DNA of 64,000 bases, taken from positions 496,001 to 560,000 of the forward strand of contig AP027078.1 in assembly GCA_027943885.1 (NCBI GenBank), read 5' to 3'. The position numbers and the translations under genes are program-made. A model generated the notes under the pieces. The model had not been told where the DNA came from and did not search any database. It saw only the letters and a program-made list of their open reading frames with translations. The first letter of the stretch is position 1. The number at the start of each line of letters is the position of its first letter. The stretch comes from Candidatus Tyloplasma litorale. Lineage in GTDB: Bacteria; Bacillota_I; Bacilli_A; Mycoplasmatales; Hepatoplasmataceae. This document shows positions 11,910-64,000 of this stretch, piece after piece.

Positions 11910-13958
11910 TTAATTTTTATTGATTTTTTTAAAATCAGATAATATCATTTCTTCTAATGAAAATTTAGGTTTTCAACCATATATTCTTCTTATCTTATCA
12001 GAAGAAGAATATAAAGCATCTGGATCACCTTTACGTCTATCTGCTATTTCTACTTTTATTCTTTTATTGTGAACTTTACAAGCAGCTTCATAAACTTCTT
12101 TTACTGAAAATCCTTTATCAGAAGAAATATTAAATATTTCTGAAGAAGTATTATTCTCAAATATTTTTTCAGTCAATAATAAATGTACATTAGATAAATC
12201 ACAAACATGAACATAGTCTCTTACACAAGTTCCATCTTTTGTTTTATAATCATTTCCAAAAATATAAAATTTTTTTTCATTAATAAAGGCATCATTAATT
12301 AAAGGAATTAAATGAGAAAAGTTTTCTTTAGGATTATATCTAGTTTCTTCAGAACAAGCCCCAGCAACATTAAAATATCTTAAAATAAAATATTTCATTC
12401 CTGAATTAATTATTTCTCTTTCGGCCATTAATTTAGATTTCCCATAAGGGTTTATTGGAGAAGTATTATGATTTTCATAAATTGGTAACTTTGTAGATAT
12501 TCCATATACTGCTGCAGTAGAAGAAAATATAATATTTTTAACATTATATTTTTTAGCTATTTTAATTAAATTTACAGTGCCATTATAATTAACATCAAAA
12601 TATTCTTCTTTTTTTAAAAAAGATTCTGGAACAGAGATCAAACCTGCAAGATGAATTATTAAATCAAATTTTATTTTAGAAAAAATTTCATTTAATTTTT
12701 TTTCATCTCTAATATCACAGGTAAATTTTCTAGAAAAAAATGAATTTTCTTTTTTGAAAGAATTGATATTATTATCTATACCAAAAATTTCATATTCATT
12801 AGTCATTATATAAGCTATATTAGTAGCTATATAACCATCACAACCTGTTATTAAAATTTTCTTTTTATTTGAGATTTGTTTATTATTAAAACATTCTTGT
12901 ATTTTTAAATTAATTAAATTTAAATCATATTCCAATGATTTTAAACTAGTTATTTTAAATAAATCTATTGCTGATTTTAATTCTTTGTTGTATATTTTTT
13001 TAAATGTTTTTTCTAAAATATTAATATAAAAATATCTAAGATAAGTAGTTCCTTCAATTAAGTTTTCTAAATATTGTTTATTTATAATTATTTCCATATT
13101 TTTAAATCTTTTTTCAAAATTATTTTTACTAATTATTTTACTAGAGTTAAATTCTTTAATTATAAGTGAGGAATTATTTCTATGAATATTTGCATTATTA
13201 ATTCTTTCTTTTATATTTGAATTTTTACTAAGAAAGGGATCAAAGAATTCCAATAAATGAGAAGAATCAGGAACAATAATTTCAATATTTAAATTATGAG
13301 AAATAACTAACATAATTATTGAAAAATGATCATAATATGAAGATGCTTGAATTGAATCTAATATTTTGTTCTTTCCTATTAACTTATAAACATTTTCATA
13401 TTCATTTATAAAATTTTTATAAAATATATTTGGAATTGTAAAAATACATTGATTAGTAAAAAATATTTCTTTGCCTTTAAAATTAATAAAATTTAAAATT
13501 TTTTTATCTATATTAGATAAAAAAGAATATTTTTTTCTTTGACCACCATGTAAAACAATTTTTGAATCACTTAATTCCAAATTATTATTAATTATTAAAT
13601 CATTTTCTAAAAAAGTTATAGTTTTATAAGTTTTTTCTTTTAAAATTTCAATTGGTTGATGAAATGAATTTAATATTCCAGTAAATCTAGAATTATTTAA
13701 TTTTATAATTTTCTCAAATAAATCATTTTTTTTATATTCTAAATAGACTATATTATTAACTTTTAATAATTTTTTTTCAATGTCCGATAATTTATCAATT
13801 GGACAATATAAAATCTTAGTAAATATATTTCCATTGGATTTTGTTAAAGAATTAAATGTACCTAATACACCAACTATTTCAGAAAAAACATTATAAAAAT
13901 CACCTAAACTTGATAATGAAATTATTGCTAAATGATTTTCTTTATTTTTTTTAAGCAT
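11910..13958 (-). CDS. Fusion: unknown glycan-locus domain + UDP-glucose 4-epimerase (GalE)
   Basis: 682 residues. Residues about 367-682 are a full short-chain epimerase: nucleotide-binding TGCDGYIATNIA, catalytic SSTAAVYG and Y-G-K-S-K near residue 504, and the GalE-specific RYFNVAGA and GTCVRDYVHVCDL segments. It would interconvert UDP-Glc and UDP-Gal. Residues 1-360 are a domain I do not recognise, with LAIISLSSLG, a FLENDLIIN segment and a Lys/Asn-rich helical tail. The gene 8 nt upstream encodes the same domain alone. GalE is normally a stand-alone protein of about 330 residues, so the fused domain is probably a sugar transferase that uses the product; this is inference. Confidence 0.85.
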
Positions 13959-13966
13959 GTTAAATT

Positions 13967-15040
13967 TTAAATTTGATTTTTAATTTCCTTTATTTTATCA
14001 TTAATTAATTTCAAATCATTTGATAAACAATTTAAACTTTTTTTCTTAAATTTTTTTATTTTAGAATCTAATTTTTTATAATGAGTTTTCTTTAATGGAT
14101 TTTCTAAATAATATATATATAAATTTCTAAGATAAATAGTTCCTTCAGATAACTTACTTAAATAATTTAAATTAGTATAATCTATAGAAATTTTAATTCT
14201 TTTTTCAAAATATTTTTTATCAATCAATTTATTAAAATTAAACTCTTTTAATAAAAGTCCAGAATTATTTCTATGAATGTTAAATTTTTTAATTTCTGTT
14301 GAAATATTTTCATTATTTTTTAAAAAAACATTAAAGTATAATAATAAATTTTCTTCATTTGGCTTTTCTAATTGTAAATTTATTTTACTAGATATTGAAT
14401 GCATAATAACTGAAAAATGATCATAATATGAAGATGGTTTAGAAAAATCTAAAATGTTAAGATTTATTAATCATTTATAAAGTTCTTCATATTCAATTAA
14501 AAATTTTTGATAAAAATTTCCAGGAATAGAAAAAATACATTGAGCAGTAAAAATTAATTTTTCTTCAATAATATTAAAATTTGACAATATTTTTCTATCT
14601 AATTCAGAAAATTTATCATATGATTTTAATCATCCTCCATGTAAAATAATTTTTGAATCACTTAATTCCAAATTATTATTAATTATTAAATCATTTTCTA
14701 AAAAAGTTATAGTTTTATAAGTTTTCTTTTTTAAAATTTCAACTGGTTGATGAAATGAATTTAATATTCCAGTAAATCTAGCATTATTTAATTTCATAAT
14801 TTTTTTGAATAAATCATTTTTTTTATATTCTAAATAAATTATATTATTAATTTTTAATAATTTTTTTTCAATCTTTGATAATTTTTCAATTGGACAATAT
14901 AAAATCTTAGTAAATATATTTCCATTGGATTCTGTTAAAGAATTAAATGTTCCAACTACACCAACTATTTCTGAAAAAGAATTTGCAAATAAACCTAAAG
15001 ATGATAAGGAAATTATTGCTAAATTATCTTTTTTATACAT
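13967..15040 (-). CDS. Stand-alone paralogue of the GalE-fused unknown domain
   Basis: 357 residues in one frame with TGA as Trp. The first 136 residues are nearly identical to the N-terminus of the downstream GalE fusion (shared FTKILYCPI and ITFLENDLIINNNLELSDSK). The rest is clearly homologous but much more diverged (SSYYDHFSVIMHSIS; NIHRNNSGLLLKEFN). I cannot assign a family. The acidic segment inside FLENDLII and the locus context are compatible with a glycosyltransferase. It sits between the GT2-GT8 gene (23 nt upstream) and the fusion gene (8 nt downstream), so all are co-transcribed. Confidence 0.7.
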
Positions 15041-20722: not shown

Positions 20723-21807
20723 TATTTTACTAAAACTCCATTACAACCATATATAAAAAATGATCTATAAATTTTATTATGAAAAGTTTCTAACTTGTCT
20801 CTTCTTCCTCTAACTACATAATAATGTAAATTCATTTGCATTGAATGAGCACCAATAGAAATTCTAATTTTATTATGAGTATTATCTAAAATGAAATCAG
20901 GCTTAAATAAAGAATTGTTAATTATTCTAATTTTTTTTACATTATATATTTGTTTTAAAGTGTATGAAAGATTTTGATCTTTTTCAAATAAATAAATAAC
21001 TAAATCATTATTTTTATTTTCATTAGAAATAAAATTAAATAATTCTTTATTCAAAAAAGAACCTATTTTATTTTGAATATAAATTTTTTTTATATTTTGT
21101 TTTTTTATATTTTTTGTATTTATTCTATTTCAAAAAGTAATAAAATTTTCAATTCATGAAGGGGTTAAAATTGAAAATCTAGAAATAAATTGAATAAATT
21201 TCACAACAAAAATGCTATCAATCCAATTGATTTCATGCTTATGAACAAAATAACTTTTCACTCTTCTTTCATTTCATAAGCTTACTAAATTTCTATTTAA
21301 AATAGTTATACTATTTATGGTTTGTGTTTTTGATTTTTTAGAAAAATAAGGATACATTCTAAAAAATATTTCTGTTCACACAATATTTCCCAAAGGAAAA
21401 AAACAACATTTATCAATGGAATCATAATATTTTAAAACTTCCTTAAGAAAAATGTGATTAGGAACAGATGCAATAATACCCATTGATAAATTATTTTTAT
21501 ATTCATAACCTAAAAATAATTCATTTTCTAAAAGTTTTTCATCTAATTTTTCAAAAGGATCCATATCGGTATCTAAATAAATACCACCTTCTTTATATAA
21601 AATCTCCATTCTAAAGTAATCAGTTAAAAAACTTCATTTTTTTAATTTATATGCTCTTTTTACAAAATCATTTTTTTGAAAATCAAATGAACTTTCATCC
21701 CATATTTTTATCTCATAATCATTATATTTTTCCCAAATTTTTGATTCATATTTTCAATTAATTGGCATATCACCAAATCAAATTATATGTATTTTTTTAC
21801 TTATCAT
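20722..21807 (-). CDS. GT32-family glycosyltransferase with C-terminal extension
   Basis: 361 residues. The N-terminal 220 residues match the GT32 (OCH1-like, capsular) family: KKIHIIWFGDMPI start, ESKIWEKYNDYEIKIWDE, then the D-Y-F-R-M-E-I-L-Y-K-E-GG-IYLDTDMD core with the D-x-D motif, and SMGIIASVPNHIFLKEVL. The C-terminal 110 residues, after a Lys/Ile-rich joint, have no counterpart in the second GT32 gene of the locus. It starts inside the last codons of the TagD-like gene (11-nt overlap) and ends on the licD start (TAATG). Confidence 0.8.
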
Positions 21808-22702
21808 TTTCACTTATTTTCTTTTTTAAAATTGTAGAGGATATATTTTTGGTTCTTTCAATATAATGAACTTCAACAAATTCTTTTAGATAACAAAATT
21901 TATCTTTTCAATCCGTTCCCATAACAAATTTTTTAACTGAATATTTTTTAATATCATCTATTTTTTGTTCTCAACTATGCTCTGGAATAATTAATGTAAC
22001 AAATTCATTTTTAATTAAATTATTGAATCTTGTTTCATAATCATCATAAGATTTTTTGCCTTTTAAATTATTGAATTCATCTGTTGACAATCCTACAATT
22101 AAAAGATCTCCCATTTTTGCAGCTTTTTTTAAAATATTTATATGTCCATGATGAAGTAAATCAAAAGTTCCATAAGTTAAAACAATTTCTGGATTTTTAT
22201 TTTTTATTAAAGTACTTGATATTCTTGAAGTTCTTTCAAAGAACATAATTTTCATTTTTGAACCTTTTGGAGAAATTCTTTTATTTATATATTCTAAATT
22301 TTTAAAATGATCACCACCTTGAACAATTAAATCAACTTTGTATTCATCTCAAATTTCACCTCAAGATTCTTCGGGTTCATTATGATCTTCAAGTATTATT
22401 GTTGCTTTAGGATAGAATTTTTTAAGATTGTTTAATCTTACATCTTCATTTTCTGAACAAATTTTTCCTTTTCTAGAATTCCAACGATCAGAAGAAACAC
22501 CAATAATAACATTTTCCTCTAAACCAGTTAATTCAATGGCTTTATTTATTATATTTTTATGTCCATAATGAAATTTATCAAAAGTACCAAAAGTAATTAT
22601 TCTTTTACCTTTAAAATCCAAATAATTATGTTGTGAAGGTAAAATTCTTTGTTTTAAATTAGATTCTTGTTTTTCTAATTCAATTATCAAATTTTTATTC
22701 AT
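21797..22702 (-). CDS. Tandem two-domain TagD-type cytidylyltransferase
   Basis: 301 residues containing two consecutive nucleotidyltransferase domains. Domain 1: ITFGTFDKFHYGHKNII (about residue 36) and FERTSRISST at its end. Domain 2: LTYGTFDLLHHGHINIL (about residue 168) and IERTKNISSTIL at its end. Both keep the H-x-G-H and the R-T-x-x-I-S-S/T-T motifs of glycerol-3-phosphate cytidylyltransferase, so both look active. TagD is normally a 130-residue single-domain homodimer; here the dimer appears fused. The expected product is CDP-glycerol (or CDP-ribitol/choline), the donor class used by LicD. It has its own TATAAT 6 nt before the ATG. Confidence 0.88.
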
Positions 22703-22708
22703 AAGTTA

Positions 22709-22714
22709 ATTATA
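22709..22714 (-). promoter_or_regulatory. -10-like TATAAT before the double cytidylyltransferase gene
   Basis: TATAAT ends 6 nt before the ATG at 22702. There is no ribosome-binding site, and the preceding gene stops at 22732. Confidence 0.4.
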
Positions 22715-22731
22715 TATTAATATAAAAATAA

Positions 22732-23490
22732 TTAATTTTTATACATTTTATTAATGTAATTTTTCTTTAGTTGTAATTTAGGTCAAAAATAAAATATTCA
22801 ATAACCTTTATTTATGAAAGTTATTTTTTGACTTAAAAATATTACTAATCTTATTGGTTTTCTTAAATTTTTAGGAACTCAAGTAACTTGATGGTTATGA
22901 ATAAAATATTGATTATTTAATATTTTTGTTTTTTTTGATTCTTTTATTAAAGAAAATTTTTCATAATCATAAACAATATATTTATTATTTTCCTTGTATT
23001 TTCCATTTAATTTAAAATTAAATTGTTTTTTTGCAACATAATCTCAAATTATATTTCCAATTATAAAATTTCCCTTTTCATAATTTTCATAAATTTCTTT
23101 TAATTCTTTAAAAAATTTATTTTTAGGAACTGAAGCTGCAAAGCCCATTGATAATGTAACTGTATTTTCAAAACAAAGAATTAATTCTTTATTTTTATTA
23201 ATTAAATGATCAAGATTTTTTAAAATTTTCATATCATGATCAAGATAAATTCCACCCTCTTCATATAATATTTTTAATCTAATATAATCAGATAAAAAGG
23301 ATCATCTTTGTTCTTCATAAGCTTTTTTGACAAAGGGAATTTTATTTAATTCATCTCAATTAAAATCTTCTTCTTTTCAAATTTTTATATCATATTCTGG
23401 AGCAAACTTTTTCATTCTATTATCATCATAAATGAAATTTTCTTTTGTTCCAAATCATATAAAATGGATTTTTTTAGGGATTAAATTCAT
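22732..23490 (-). CDS. GT32-family glycosyltransferase
   Basis: 252 residues. It shares the same core as the second GT32 gene: PKKIHFIWFGT, DYIRLKILYEEGGIYLDHDM and TLSMGFAASVPKNKFF. The metal motif is D-H-D instead of D-T-D, still a D-x-D. It lacks the long C-terminal extension of its paralogue and ends with a basic, aromatic tail that could lie on the membrane. It is the first gene of the minus-strand glycan operon and has an extended -10 seven bases before its ATG. Confidence 0.82.
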
Positions 23491-25771: not shown

Positions 25772-26143
25772 CTAAGCAAATAATTCTGATATTTTAGGTA
25801 AAAAAATAATAAGTCCAATAATAATTGCTCCAATAGTAACAACTAAAGTTGCCATTGCTGCTACATCTTTTACTTTTTTTGCCTTAACATTATATTCAAA
25901 AGAAACAATATCCACAATATATTCTATTGCAGTATTAATTATTTCAAAACCTATTACTAATACTATTGAGAATATAATAGCTATTCATTCATAAGCTTCT
26001 ATATCAAAAACAATACCCATGATAATTACAAAAATAGTTGCAAAAAAATGTACTCATAATGATTTTTCTTCCCTAATCATTACAAGCATACCTTTCATAG
26101 CATTAATAAATTTTTTTGATGTTCTTTTAAATCAATTTATCAT
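25772..26143 (-). CDS. dgkA: Diacylglycerol/undecaprenol kinase family protein
   Basis: 123 residues with TGA as Trp. It is a small integral-membrane lipid kinase with three hydrophobic helices. The family signature is visible as IGFEIINTAIEYIVD, with the catalytic Glu and the N-T-A-I-E motif, and the amphipathic N-terminus FKRTSKKFINAMKGM is typical. In Gram-positives it phosphorylates undecaprenol or diacylglycerol; in a wall-less cell diacylglycerol is the likelier substrate. A truncated copy of its N-terminal half lies just upstream. Confidence 0.9.
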
Positions 26144-26201
26144 AATTTATCATTATTAGTTATATTATATAATAATATAAATTTAAATTATTAATTTCTA
26201 A

Positions 26202-26414
26202 TTAGTAAAATATTTTTCGTTGTTTAGAAATTATTGTTCTTTCTAATAAAATAGCTATTCATTCATAAGTTTCTATACCAAAAAAAATACCTATTATAAT
26301 TACAAAAATAGTTATAAGGGATATTCATAATTCCTTTTTATCTTTAATAATTACAAATGTGCTTTTCATAAAATTAATAAATTTTTTTGATATTCTTTTG
26401 AATCAATTTATCAT
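26202..26414 (-). pseudogene. Fossil hybrid: dgkA N-terminus joined to ybeY C-terminus
   Basis: A 70-codon open frame. Codons 1-55 clearly copy the start of dgkA (MINWFKRISKKFINFMK against MINWFKRTSKKFINAMK, and ETYEWIAI against EAYEWIAI). The last codons copy the end of ybeY (ERTIISKQRKIF against ERKMISKQQEIF), and the flanking intergenic bases also match. It lacks the catalytic centre of both parents. The simplest origin is a tandem duplication of ybeY-dgkA followed by a deletion joining dgkA' to 'ybeY. It remains open, so a short membrane peptide could still be made. Confidence 0.85.
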
Positions 26415-26438
26415 TATTGGGTATATTATAATATAAAA

Positions 26439-26900
26439 TTATCACTTTCTAATTTTTAGATTCTTAAATATTTCTTGTTGCTTAGAAATCATTTTTCTTT
26501 CTGCAGCAATATTGTTATGATCATAACCAATCAAATGAAGAATTCCATGCATTACCAAAAATTTTAATTCTATATAAGGATTGCTATTTATTTCTTTAGA
26601 TTGTTCTTCCAAAATATCTTCATTAATAAAGATATCACCAATATATAAATTTTTATTATCCAATTCATTATGAGGAAAAGATAAAACATCAGTTGATTTA
26701 TCAATATTTCTATGTTCATTATTTAATTTTCTCATTTTTTTACTATCACAAATATAAACAGACATTTCTAAAGGATTTTCAAAATCTTTTGAAACATATT
26801 TCAATATTCTTTTAATATCTTTTATTGCTGAAAAATATTTAAAATTTTTATTTAAAATTTGCTCATTTTTGTAAAAATTAATCACATTATTTTTAAACAT
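26439..26900 (-). CDS. ybeY: Endoribonuclease YbeY
   Basis: 153 residues: the TGA at 26442-26444 is read as Trp and the true stop is TAA at 26439-26441. YbeY takes part in 16S rRNA 3'-end maturation and ribosome quality control. The zinc site H-G-I-L-H-L-I-G-Y-D-H is intact, preceded by TDVLSFPH and GDIFI. It is the first gene of the ybeY-dgkA-cdd-era run, with TATAAT 11 nt before the ATG and no ribosome-binding site. Confidence 0.95.
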
Positions 26901-26918: not shown

Positions 26919-26951
26919 AAAAAATGAAGAAGTTTATTCTTCTTCATTTTT
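26919..26951 (-). terminator. Intrinsic terminator of the helicase gene
   Basis: Twelve-bp perfect arms (AAAATGAAGAAG / CTTCTTCATTTT) around 6 nt; the stem overlaps the helicase stop codon. T-rich on both sides, so it could work in both directions. Confidence 0.88.
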
Positions 26952-29900
26952 ATTTTTCTTTTGCATAGCTAAAATTCTTTTTACTTTTAAATCTATTTTT
27001 TTAATTTCTTCATTTCTATTAATTCATCAATTTGGTGATCATATTTTATAAGTGAATCAACCTCTTGATTCTAAGAATTCTTTCATTAAATAATCTTTTT
27101 CTCTTGCTGAAGAATTACTTTCACTATTCTCAAATAAAATAGCTAAAATCTTTTTATCAGTTTTTTTATCAACTAAAACATAATTTATTTTATAACCAAT
27201 TGTTTCATAATTATGTATTAATTTTATATTATTCTTTAATGCATAATCCATTAAAGAATTATGAACTTCATTTTCAAAAAATGTCATATCTTTTTCATCA
27301 ACAATTTTTTCTTCTTTTGCTTCAAAATTTGATTCATTTATTCTTTTAGCAAATTGAATATATTCAATAAAGTCTTTTGGTCCTTGATGTAAAGAATTTG
27401 CAACTTTTATTGCTGCTTGTTCAAGATCAATAGATGAAACTACAATCATTTTTTTCTTAGCTCTAGTAATTGCAACATTAATTCTATTTGAACCTAAGGA
27501 TTGATTAATAGGTCCAAAATTAATTAATTGTTTACCATTAGTATCTGGTCCATAAGTTGTAGAAAAAATAATAATATCTCTTTCATCACCTTGAACATTT
27601 TCTATTGATTTAATAAAAGCATCATTGTTTTTTAATCATTCAAATAAATCATAACTTTCCATCATTATTTGATTTAGTATATATTCTTCTTGTTTTGAAT
27701 TGGTTGTAATGATTCCAATACTTGCATCAACATTTTTTTTGGTTAATTTTTTTAATATTTCAATTACTTTATTTGCTTCAACTTTATTTAAACCATCATC
27801 ATAATTAGAATTTTCAACAAAAATATACTCTAAAGGTTTTTTAATTTGATTATTCAATGTATCAATAAAATTTAACCCTCCTTCATAATATTTATTATTT
27901 GAAAATTGAATTAAATTTATATGTTGCGATCTATAGTGATTCTTTAACATTACCTCTGGCAACTTAGATTTTGAGTAAGTTAATAATGATTCATTTTGTT
28001 CAATTAAATCATCATCTTCATCAGAAGTTATTCTTCCTGCAAAGAAACTAGATGGTCCTAATTGTTTTTCATCTCCTAAAACAACTAACTTTTTAGCTCT
28101 TGCAATTGCAGGTATAGTTCTTTCTAAAAATATTTGTGAAGCTTCATCGAAAATAACCATATCAAATTTTTCATTTATTGAAAATAATGTTGGAACAACT
28201 TCAGGTTGCATCAATCAAACTTTAACAAAATTTTCCATTTCTAAATGATAATCTTTAATAAATTTTCTAATTGCAATTGGTCTTTTTCTTTCAGTTATTT
28301 TTTTAATACTATTTTCTCTTGAATTAAGACTTATTTTTCTTAAATTATTATTTAAAACCAATTTTAATTGATTTTCTGAAAATTTGAAAAATTCTTTATT
28401 TAATTTTTCAATATAAGTTAAATTCTTTTCATATTTTTTAATAAGATCTATTTTGTCTTTGAAGGAATGTGATTTTAATAATTTTTTAATAATATTTATT
28501 TTAATTGCTTCAATGGATTCTTCAATATTATTATCATCAATAAATTTAATTAAATTTTTATTTATTTTATTTATTTTCAAAAAATAATCAATATCAATTT
28601 TTGATTCTTCTAATTTTTCAATTTTATTAGAAAAATTTTCTTTTAATAATTCTTGTTTTTCAACTTGAATATCCAAAACTGAAAATAAAGTTCCCAATTT
28701 TAACTCTTTAAAATCAACACTATTTAAATCATATTTTTGTGTTAATTCTTTTTTAACTTTTAAATTTTTTAATATACGATAAAAATCAGAATGCTTTTCT
28801 CAAATTCTATTAATATCTTCTTTATTATTTAATATTTTTTTATTTTTATTTATTTCTTCAACTATTTTTTTAATTTTATTTAATATATTTTCAATTATTT
28901 CTGAGGTATTTTCAAATTTGGAATAATACTCATTTATAACTTCTTTAAGTAAAAGAAGCCTTTCTTTTGAATTTATTTTTTCTAAAAAATTAAATGTTAA
29001 ATTATATTGATCTAATGATAAATTATCAAATTTAAAAAACTCATGTTCAAAAGCTATTTTTTTAGATTGAGGAGTTTCTAAATATGGTTTTACAAAAATA
29101 CTTGAAATTTGTTCTAAAACATTTTTGTTATTAAATCCAAATTTTTTATAAATTAAATCTAAATCTTCATATTTATCTTTTAATTCTTCTCTAATATTTT
29201 TAGATATGTTTTCATCAATTTCATAAAAATCTTTATTTATCATTTTATTCAATTGATTATAAAATTGAAATTTATCTTTTGTATCTGAAATTAAAATTGA
29301 ATTGTTTTTTAAAATTTTTAATCTTTTTTTAATAACTTCTAAAGCAATTTGTTTTTCAGAAATAACAGCAACTTTTTTACCTTCAGCTACAGCATTTTCA
29401 ACAATAGAAATTATTGTTTCTGATTTACCAGTTCCTGGAGGACCTCAAATAGTTATTCCCTTAATGCTATTTTGATTAATCATTTTAAGTGCTCTTAATT
29501 GTTGATCATTTAATTTATTTGTATAAAAAAGTTTTGTATCATCATTAATTTCTTCCTCGATGATATTTTTAGTTTTTTTAATAGATTGTCTTGAATGGAA
29601 ATCTTCATTTGCTAAAAATTTGGTAAGCATAGGTGTTGAATCATTCATATAGATTAAATCATTAATTTCAGATTGGATATCATTACCAAAATCTGAAAAT
29701 AAACCTAGCAATAAATTATGTTTTATTGAATAATTTCCTATATTATATTCTCATTCATCATTTACAGTAACCTTTCTAAAAGGTTCTATTTCCATATGAT
29801 TATTAGATATTTTTTTATTCAATTTTGCAAAATTAGCAATATTTTCATTTAAAGTATTATTATATTCATAAATAAAAGAATCTTCTAAATTTAAAACATA

Positions 29901-30638
29901 CTCTTCTATAAATGAATTTACAAAAATATCCCTTGAGTGATCAACATTCAAAGTTCAATTATTTCTTTTTTTATCTAAATTTAATTCAACCGGAAAGAAA
30001 AACAAAGGAGTTCTAATTTTAATATCTTTATCTTGAATGTTCACTCTTCCTTCAAAAATAACAGGTGAAATATAAAGAATATTTTTACCTTTTTCCAATT
30101 TTTGTTTTTCATTTTCTCTATAAAGAGATTGAAATCAAGTAATTTCCTTTTTATTAATAAATTCTCTTTTTTCTTCAGATGTTTTATTTGTATTATTAAG
30201 TGTTTTTGCATACTTTCTTTTAATTACATCACTTGAGATAATCAAATTAAAAGTTTTTGTGGAATTAGGTGAAGAAAATATTTTGTAAATATCTTGTTTG
30301 GATTTTTTAGTTAATTTACTTAAATCTAATAACCTATTTTTAGTTTCCTTTGTATTTCAAATTATATTATTACGTTGTGAAATATTAGTAAGTCTATCTC
30401 TTAATGTTTGTAATTTTTCAACTATTTCATTACTTGCATTTATTCTATTTGTATATTTTTTATAATGTGCTTCTATTCTTTCAACATAAGGTCTTATTTT
30501 TTTATAAGTTGTATCACCAATACCATGAATAGATAAAAAATCTTCTTCAGTTTTTGGAGTTAACTCCTTAATTTTCTCTCAAACATCTTCATTAACTTCT
30601 AATTTTATTTGCTTATATAATTTGTAAATTTCATCCAT
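26934..30638 (-). CDS. Large SF1 helicase with HRDC-like N-terminus and decayed nuclease C-terminus
   Basis: 1234 residues; six open segments in one frame once TGA is Trp. Residues 10-60 resemble an HRDC domain (FLSIHGIGDTTYKKI). Walker A is GPPGTGKS near residue 400, Walker B is MVIFDEASQ near 830, as in Upf1-type SF1B helicases, with long coiled-coil-rich insertions between (470-800). The C-terminal 115 residues follow the plan of the MTES_1575-type restriction-endonuclease domain fused to such helicases (FENEVHNSLMDYAL ... EFLESRGWFTYKIWSPNWW), but the catalytic Asp/Glu positions read YKINYVL and AILFEN. It is a single-gene unit. Role: DNA or RNA remodelling, possibly defence. Confidence 0.8.
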
Positions 30639-63231: not shown

Positions 63232-63307
63232 TGGCGGTTCTGACGGGATTTGAACCCGCGATCTCCTCTGTGACAGAGAGGCATGATAACCACTTCACTA
63301 CAGAACC
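63232..63307 (-). tRNA. tRNA-Asp(GTC)
   Basis: 76 nt, anticodon loop CTGTCAC, discriminator G, encoded CCA. Confidence 0.97.
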
Positions 63308-63309
63308 AT

Positions 63310-63386
63310 TGGTTGCGGAGATAGGATTTGAACCTATGACCTTCGGGTTATGAGCCCAACGAGCTACCAGACTGCTCCACTCCGCG
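63310..63386 (-). tRNA. Initiator tRNA-fMet(CAT)
   Basis: 77 nt. The unpaired first position (C1 against A72) and the three G-C pairs GGG/CCC next to the anticodon loop identify the initiator. Encoded CCA. Confidence 0.97.
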
Positions 63387-63396
63387 ATAAAATAAA

Positions 63397-63489
63397 TGGC
63401 GGAGATTGAGGGATTCGAACCCCCGCGCAGCTTTCGCCACCTCTCGGTTTTCAAGACCGACCCCTTCAACCAGACTTGGGTAAATCTCC
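63397..63489 (-). tRNA. tRNA-Ser(TGA)
   Basis: 93 nt with the long variable arm (class II). Anticodon loop CTTGAAA, encoded CCA. Confidence 0.96.
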
Positions 63490-63535
63490 ATAATTGCCAT
63501 ATATACATATATCATTAATTTATTTAGTTTTTTAA

Positions 63536-63612
63536 TGGTGGTTCTTGCTGGACTCGAACCAGCGACCAATCGGTTATGAGCCGACGGCTCTAACCAACTG
63601 AGCTAAAGAACC
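63536..63612 (-). tRNA. tRNA-Ile2(CAT, lysidine-modified type)
   Basis: 77 nt, anticodon CAT within CGGCTCATAACCG. The body (GCTCAGTTGGTTAGAGC, CTCATAA loop) matches the tRNA-Ile with modified CAU that reads AUA, not elongator Met, whose loop region in the next gene is GGTTCATACCC. Its function requires TilS. Confidence 0.85.
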
Positions 63613-63656
63613 ATCTTTATTATTAATACCCAATTTTAAAAGAATATTAAATTTAT

Positions 63657-63733
63657 TGGTAGCGAGGGAGGGAGTCGAACCCACGGCCTTCTGGGTATGA
63701 ACCAGACGCTCTAACCAACTGAGCTACCTCGCC
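63657..63733 (-). tRNA. Elongator tRNA-Met(CAT)
   Basis: 77 nt, anticodon region GGTTCATACCC typical of elongator Met, encoded CCA. Confidence 0.93.
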
Positions 63734-63737
63734 TTAA

Positions 63738-63813
63738 TGGTGGAGATGATCGGAGTCGAACCGACGACCTCTTGAATGCAAATCAAGTGCTCTACCAATT
63801 GAGCTACACCCCC
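63738..63813 (-). tRNA. tRNA-Ala(TGC)
   Basis: 76 nt, anticodon loop TTTGCAT. The G3-U70 pair that defines alanine tRNA is present. Encoded CCA. Confidence 0.97.
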
Positions 63814-63820
63814 ATTATAA

Positions 63821-63897
63821 TGGTCGGAGAGACAGGACTTGAACCTGCGACCCCTGCGTCCCAAACGCAGTGCTCTGCCAAACTGAGCTACTCTCCG
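63821..63897 (-). tRNA. tRNA-Pro(TGG)
   Basis: 77 nt, anticodon loop TTTGGGA, encoded CCA. Confidence 0.97.
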
Positions 63898-63902
63898 AAT
63901 AA

Positions 63903-63979
63903 TGGTGCGCCTGACAGGAGTCGAACCCACAACCTTTTGAGCCGTAATCAAACGCTCTATCCAATTGAGCTACAGACGC
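63903..63979 (-). tRNA. tRNA-Arg(ACG)
   Basis: 77 nt, anticodon loop TTACGGC, encoded CCA. The A34 needs deamination to inosine by a TadA-type enzyme to read CGC and CGA. First complete gene of the cluster in this window. Confidence 0.97.
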
Positions 63980-64000
63980 AAATAATTGCCTATGTTCTAA

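Follow-up and report, generated by a model that had tools for sequence, protein, structure and literature searches.

A dgkA'-'ybeY hybrid frame in 'Candidatus Tyloplasma litorale': probable relic of a small tandem duplication

Mosaic ORFans, short frames built from pieces of adjacent genes, were reportedly described by Amiri and colleagues in the reduced genome of Rickettsia; the frame considered here is like them in being short, in consisting of neighboring-gene pieces, and in lying in a reduced genome. A second parallel comes from Staphylococcus aureus, in which nusG'-'sigH and rplK'-'sigH hybrids arose by short-junction tandem duplication, the parental genes remaining intact on both sides (PMC3486894). 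The locus between ybeY and dgkA of 'Candidatus Tyloplasma litorale' appears comparable, in that a single tandem duplication with its ends inside two neighboring genes would have left an in-frame hybrid of the downstream'-'upstream type at the junction, with both parents intact. The two systems differ in scale: the S. aureus units are 1210 or 1888 bp long with flanking repeats of 7–8 bp, whereas the putative unit at ybeY–dgkA measures ~255–275 bp and shows no resolvable junction repeat. They also differ in state, the S. aureus duplication being fresh and its hybrid selected, expressed, and active, whereas the duplication described here is old (17% diverged) and its hybrid looks neutral. The architecture of such a junction hybrid is already known from nusG'-'sigH (PMC3486894).

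Layout of the ybeY–dgkA locus

The window analyzed is a stretch of 64,000 nucleotides (positions 496,001–560,000) from the 615,622-bp genome AP027078.1. On its minus strand, read with genetic code 4, ybeY is followed by a 70-codon frame and dgkA (table 1), and then by a cytidine-deaminase-like gene and era. The dgkA product scores above the gathering threshold of its family and retains GFEIINTAIE, a catalytic segment of DgkA. The hybrid alone stays under that threshold (E 0.05, 13.9 bits against 22.3) and lacks the segment, its frame ending upstream of it.

Table 1.— Features of the ybeY–dgkA locus, in window coordinates.
Feature	Position	Strand	Evidence
ybeY (rRNA maturation RNase YbeY), intact, 153 aa	26439–26900	minus	Pfam PF02130 E 1.9e-35; TIGR00043 124 bits (cut-off 45)
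dgkA'-'ybeY hybrid frame, 70 codons, 70 aa	26202–26414	minus	codons 1–56 identical to dgkA at 139/168 nt; last 44 bases identical to ybeY tail at 34/44 nt; dN/dS 0.77
dgkA (DgkA/undecaprenol-kinase family), intact, 123 aa	25772–26143	minus	Pfam PF01219 (DAGK_prokar) E 2.8e-29, 101.4 bits (cut-off 22.3)
Copy 1: ybeY tail, intergenic stretch, first 56 hybrid codons (dgkA-derived)	26245–26502	minus	self-BLAST match to 25971–26244
Copy 2: ybeY tail remnant, intergenic stretch with insertions, first 57 dgkA codons	25971–26244	minus	self-BLAST match to 26245–26502
Approximate junction of dgkA part and ybeY part, in frame with ybeY	26240–26250	minus	pairwise alignments and self-BLAST
10-bp direct repeat ATGATAAATT ATGATAAATT at dgkA start; single copy in hybrid leader	26134–26153	minus	leader comparison, 10-base alignment gap

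The hybrid aligned with dgkA at a local score of 587, whereas none of 500 shuffles scored above 246; for its tail and ybeY the score was 143, and 1000 shuffles reached no more than 107. Both ends of the frame thus have the parentage that an earlier note on this DNA had proposed, and the coordinates given there for ybeY, the hybrid, and dgkA are correct. The frame contains three TGA codons read as Trp; the claim in the same note that it is still open under this reading holds for all 70 codons, but only up to a TAA that stops it 8 residues short of the parental ybeY end. In the dgkA-derived part the sole indel is a loss of 3 bases, or one codon, which falls at dgkA codon 32 in the codon alignment and at codon 35 in the protein alignment, giving 29 and 30 differences, respectively, with the same conclusion.

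Self-BLAST of the window recovered the two copies as abutting direct repeats of 76% identity and 201 bits. Eleven near direct repeats were returned for the window, among which this pair ranks second, and the same search on ten composition-matched random windows gave at most 46.4 bits. The pair is absent from the output of Tandem Repeats Finder, for which the copies have probably diverged too far. Copy 1 begins in the last ~64 bases of ybeY. As had been proposed, the intergenic stretches on either side of the hybrid align as copies of each other, the one next to dgkA carrying extra bases that include the 10-bp repeat of table 1. Judged by eye, the junction alignment has no clear shared repeat (microhomology) at the unit ends, where divergence may have erased one. 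Through this 10-bp repeat an ATG occurs twice at the dgkA start, at a spacing of 10 bases, and the second ATG alone is in frame.

Several other features of the window were recorded, the protein genes and the tRNA-like cluster among them lying on the minus strand. A second, larger tandem duplication (11910–15040; offset 1091 bp, 76% DNA identity) pairs a 357-aa protein (13967–15040, no Pfam match), which had no match in the nine other family genomes, with the N-terminal half of the gene after it (11910–13958), which encodes a sugar-nucleotide epimerase in its C-terminal half; this duplication may have split or made a fusion gene. Repeats at 63300–64000 are probably due to a dense cluster of tRNA-like genes, as judged by eye. 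Positions 26107–26200 also match 22655–22741 (55.4 bits; best of ten random windows 46.4), a match in which the two gene starts, by coordinates, are out of register. The 301-aa protein at 21797–22702 combines two cytidylyltransferase-like stretches in one chain, and 26934–30638 encodes a helicase-like protein of 1234 aa that carries AAA_11/AAA_12 domains and, at its C terminus, a nuclease-like domain (MTES_1575); its top NCBIfam matches, the anti-phage ProA and Hhe, are far under their cut-offs.

Origin and age of the duplication

The copies abut head to tail, the hybrid joins the 5' part of the downstream gene to the 3' part of the upstream gene, and both parents are intact. We consider it highly probable that one tandem duplication of ~255–275 bp was followed by near-neutral decay of the hybrid into non-functional DNA. 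A segment with its ends 20-odd codons ahead of the ybeY stop and near dgkA codon 57 would have been duplicated once in the Tyloplasma lineage, leaving ybeY and dgkA complete and forming the in-frame hybrid at the junction between them. The predicted product of such a step (complete ybeY, first intergenic copy, dgkA'-'ybeY, second intergenic copy, complete dgkA) is the order observed; alignment and order are read directly from the DNA, and parsimony suggests the single event.

The earlier note had instead called for a tandem duplication of the whole ybeY–dgkA pair and an internal deletion joining the first dgkA copy to the second ybeY copy. Its tandem origin and its dgkA'-'ybeY order stand, but the full two-gene duplication and the deletion are unneeded where one short duplication suffices. 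Both routes leave the same final sequence, in gene order as in alignment, so the longer one is less simple and still compatible with the data; we regard it as unlikely, as it takes two events where one is enough and as none of the nine other family genomes has two dgkA copies (two of the nine being without any dgkA match). An assembly artefact has next to no chance of being the explanation and was rejected, since the copies differ by 17–24%, beyond read or assembly error, and nothing was found in its favor; the metagenome-assembled genome, published as Fukuoka2020, is described as an ONT assembly with Illumina polishing (PMC10928387).

To place the duplication in time, we turned to the relatives. 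A DgkA search of 59 genomes gave a match in 17, with two matches only in the 'Ca. T. litorale' genome. Within the family, dgkA is present once each in seven of the nine other genomes; of the remaining two, G001 and G003, the former is also without a ybeY match and is 78% complete. Directly upstream of dgkA lies ybeY in six of these seven relatives, the distance between the genes ranging from −8 to +1 bases, and no ybeY was seen upstream at the dgkA locus of the seventh, G009. The hybrid was found in none of the seven, and when the hybrid region served as a DNA query against the family, the only matches outside its own genome were the dgkA of G009 and short pieces of up to about 95 bases. The hybrid is 83% identical to its own dgkA, whereas that dgkA is 76% identical to the dgkA of the congener G002; since the hybrid is the nearer of the two, the duplication probably postdates the split from G002, gene conversion aside. 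The comparison covers one strain of the species.

Constraint on the hybrid frame

After its formation the hybrid would have drifted under little or no constraint, with the loss of one codon, of residues conserved in DgkA, and of 8 residues at the end of the parental fusion. Over 56 codons, hybrid and dgkA differ with a dS of 0.24, a dN of 0.19, and a dN/dS of 0.77, compared with a dN/dS of 0.29 between G002 and dgkA over the first 57 codons; from this small sample, purifying selection on the hybrid is not supported. The differences are flat over codon positions 1, 2, and 3 (11, 8, and 10), and 22–23 of the 29 are nonsynonymous, a number that fits an omega of 1 (P(X<=22) = 0.29) and fits an omega of 0.29 poorly (P = 0.007–0.021). 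Polarized by seven family outgroups, 21 derived changes fall on the hybrid and 8 on dgkA, with one tie (P = 0.024); with G002 as the lone outgroup the counts are 19 and 6, with 4 unresolved. Among 18 DgkA sequences, 12 columns reach a conservation of 70% or more, and the hybrid departs from the conserved residue in four of them: A15 (18 of 18 sequences), G18 (18), E25 (17), and E26 (18). Simulated neutral evolution left the frame open as far as codon 67 in 47% of runs at 15 substitutions, falling to 18% at 40; the simulations count substitutions alone, and the true figure is lower with indels.

The suggestion that the frame is either recent or kept does not agree with its 17% divergence, the near-neutral pattern, the lost conserved residues, and this neutral survival of 18–47%. 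Against neutrality stand the 70 open codons, the 3-base size of the indel, and the survival of all three Trp codons, a combination that is mildly unlikely if the frame is neutral; with few differences (29), weak constraint on the hybrid may still apply. On these same features one could propose a new small membrane protein under selection, perhaps binding DgkA, whose dgkA part would be the amphipathic helix and first transmembrane segment of DgkA. This is very unlikely, as dN/dS and codon positions, the faster evolution of the hybrid relative to dgkA, and the loss of the four conserved residues all speak against it, and as chance alone keeps the frame open in a fair share of the simulations; selection for a hybrid peptide is thus unsupported. 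That the copied segment instead owes its retention to a role at the DNA or RNA level, such as that of a leader with a promoter or start site for dgkA, seems scarcely probable. The duplicated intergenic stretch does immediately precede the dgkA start and holds promoter-like matches on the minus strand (26200–26172 and 26181–26152), but over the region such matches are at chance level (19 vs. 14.8 ± 4.3 in shuffles), on which ground this role was rejected, and in six of the seven family relatives with dgkA the two genes touch or overlap without any leader. It would be more speculative still, and we give it little credence, to see a young gene at birth, a 70-residue putative membrane peptide of DgkA N-terminal helix, first transmembrane segment, and YbeY-derived tail, under weak selection and perhaps tuning the DgkA oligomer.

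Near-neutral decay after a single short duplication thus being our preferred reading, the hybrid is most likely without a protein function and would persist as DNA between two genes on the same strand; judged by its sequence, it looks like a minor evolutionary fossil, without good evidence for function. As such it offers a clean natural case of one small tandem duplication giving an in-frame hybrid of two neighbors, and of the decay of a junction product whose frame has by chance stayed open, in a symbiont genome that is reduced and AT-rich. It also advises caution: where TGA codes for Trp, 70 open codons in a row are weak grounds for calling a gene.
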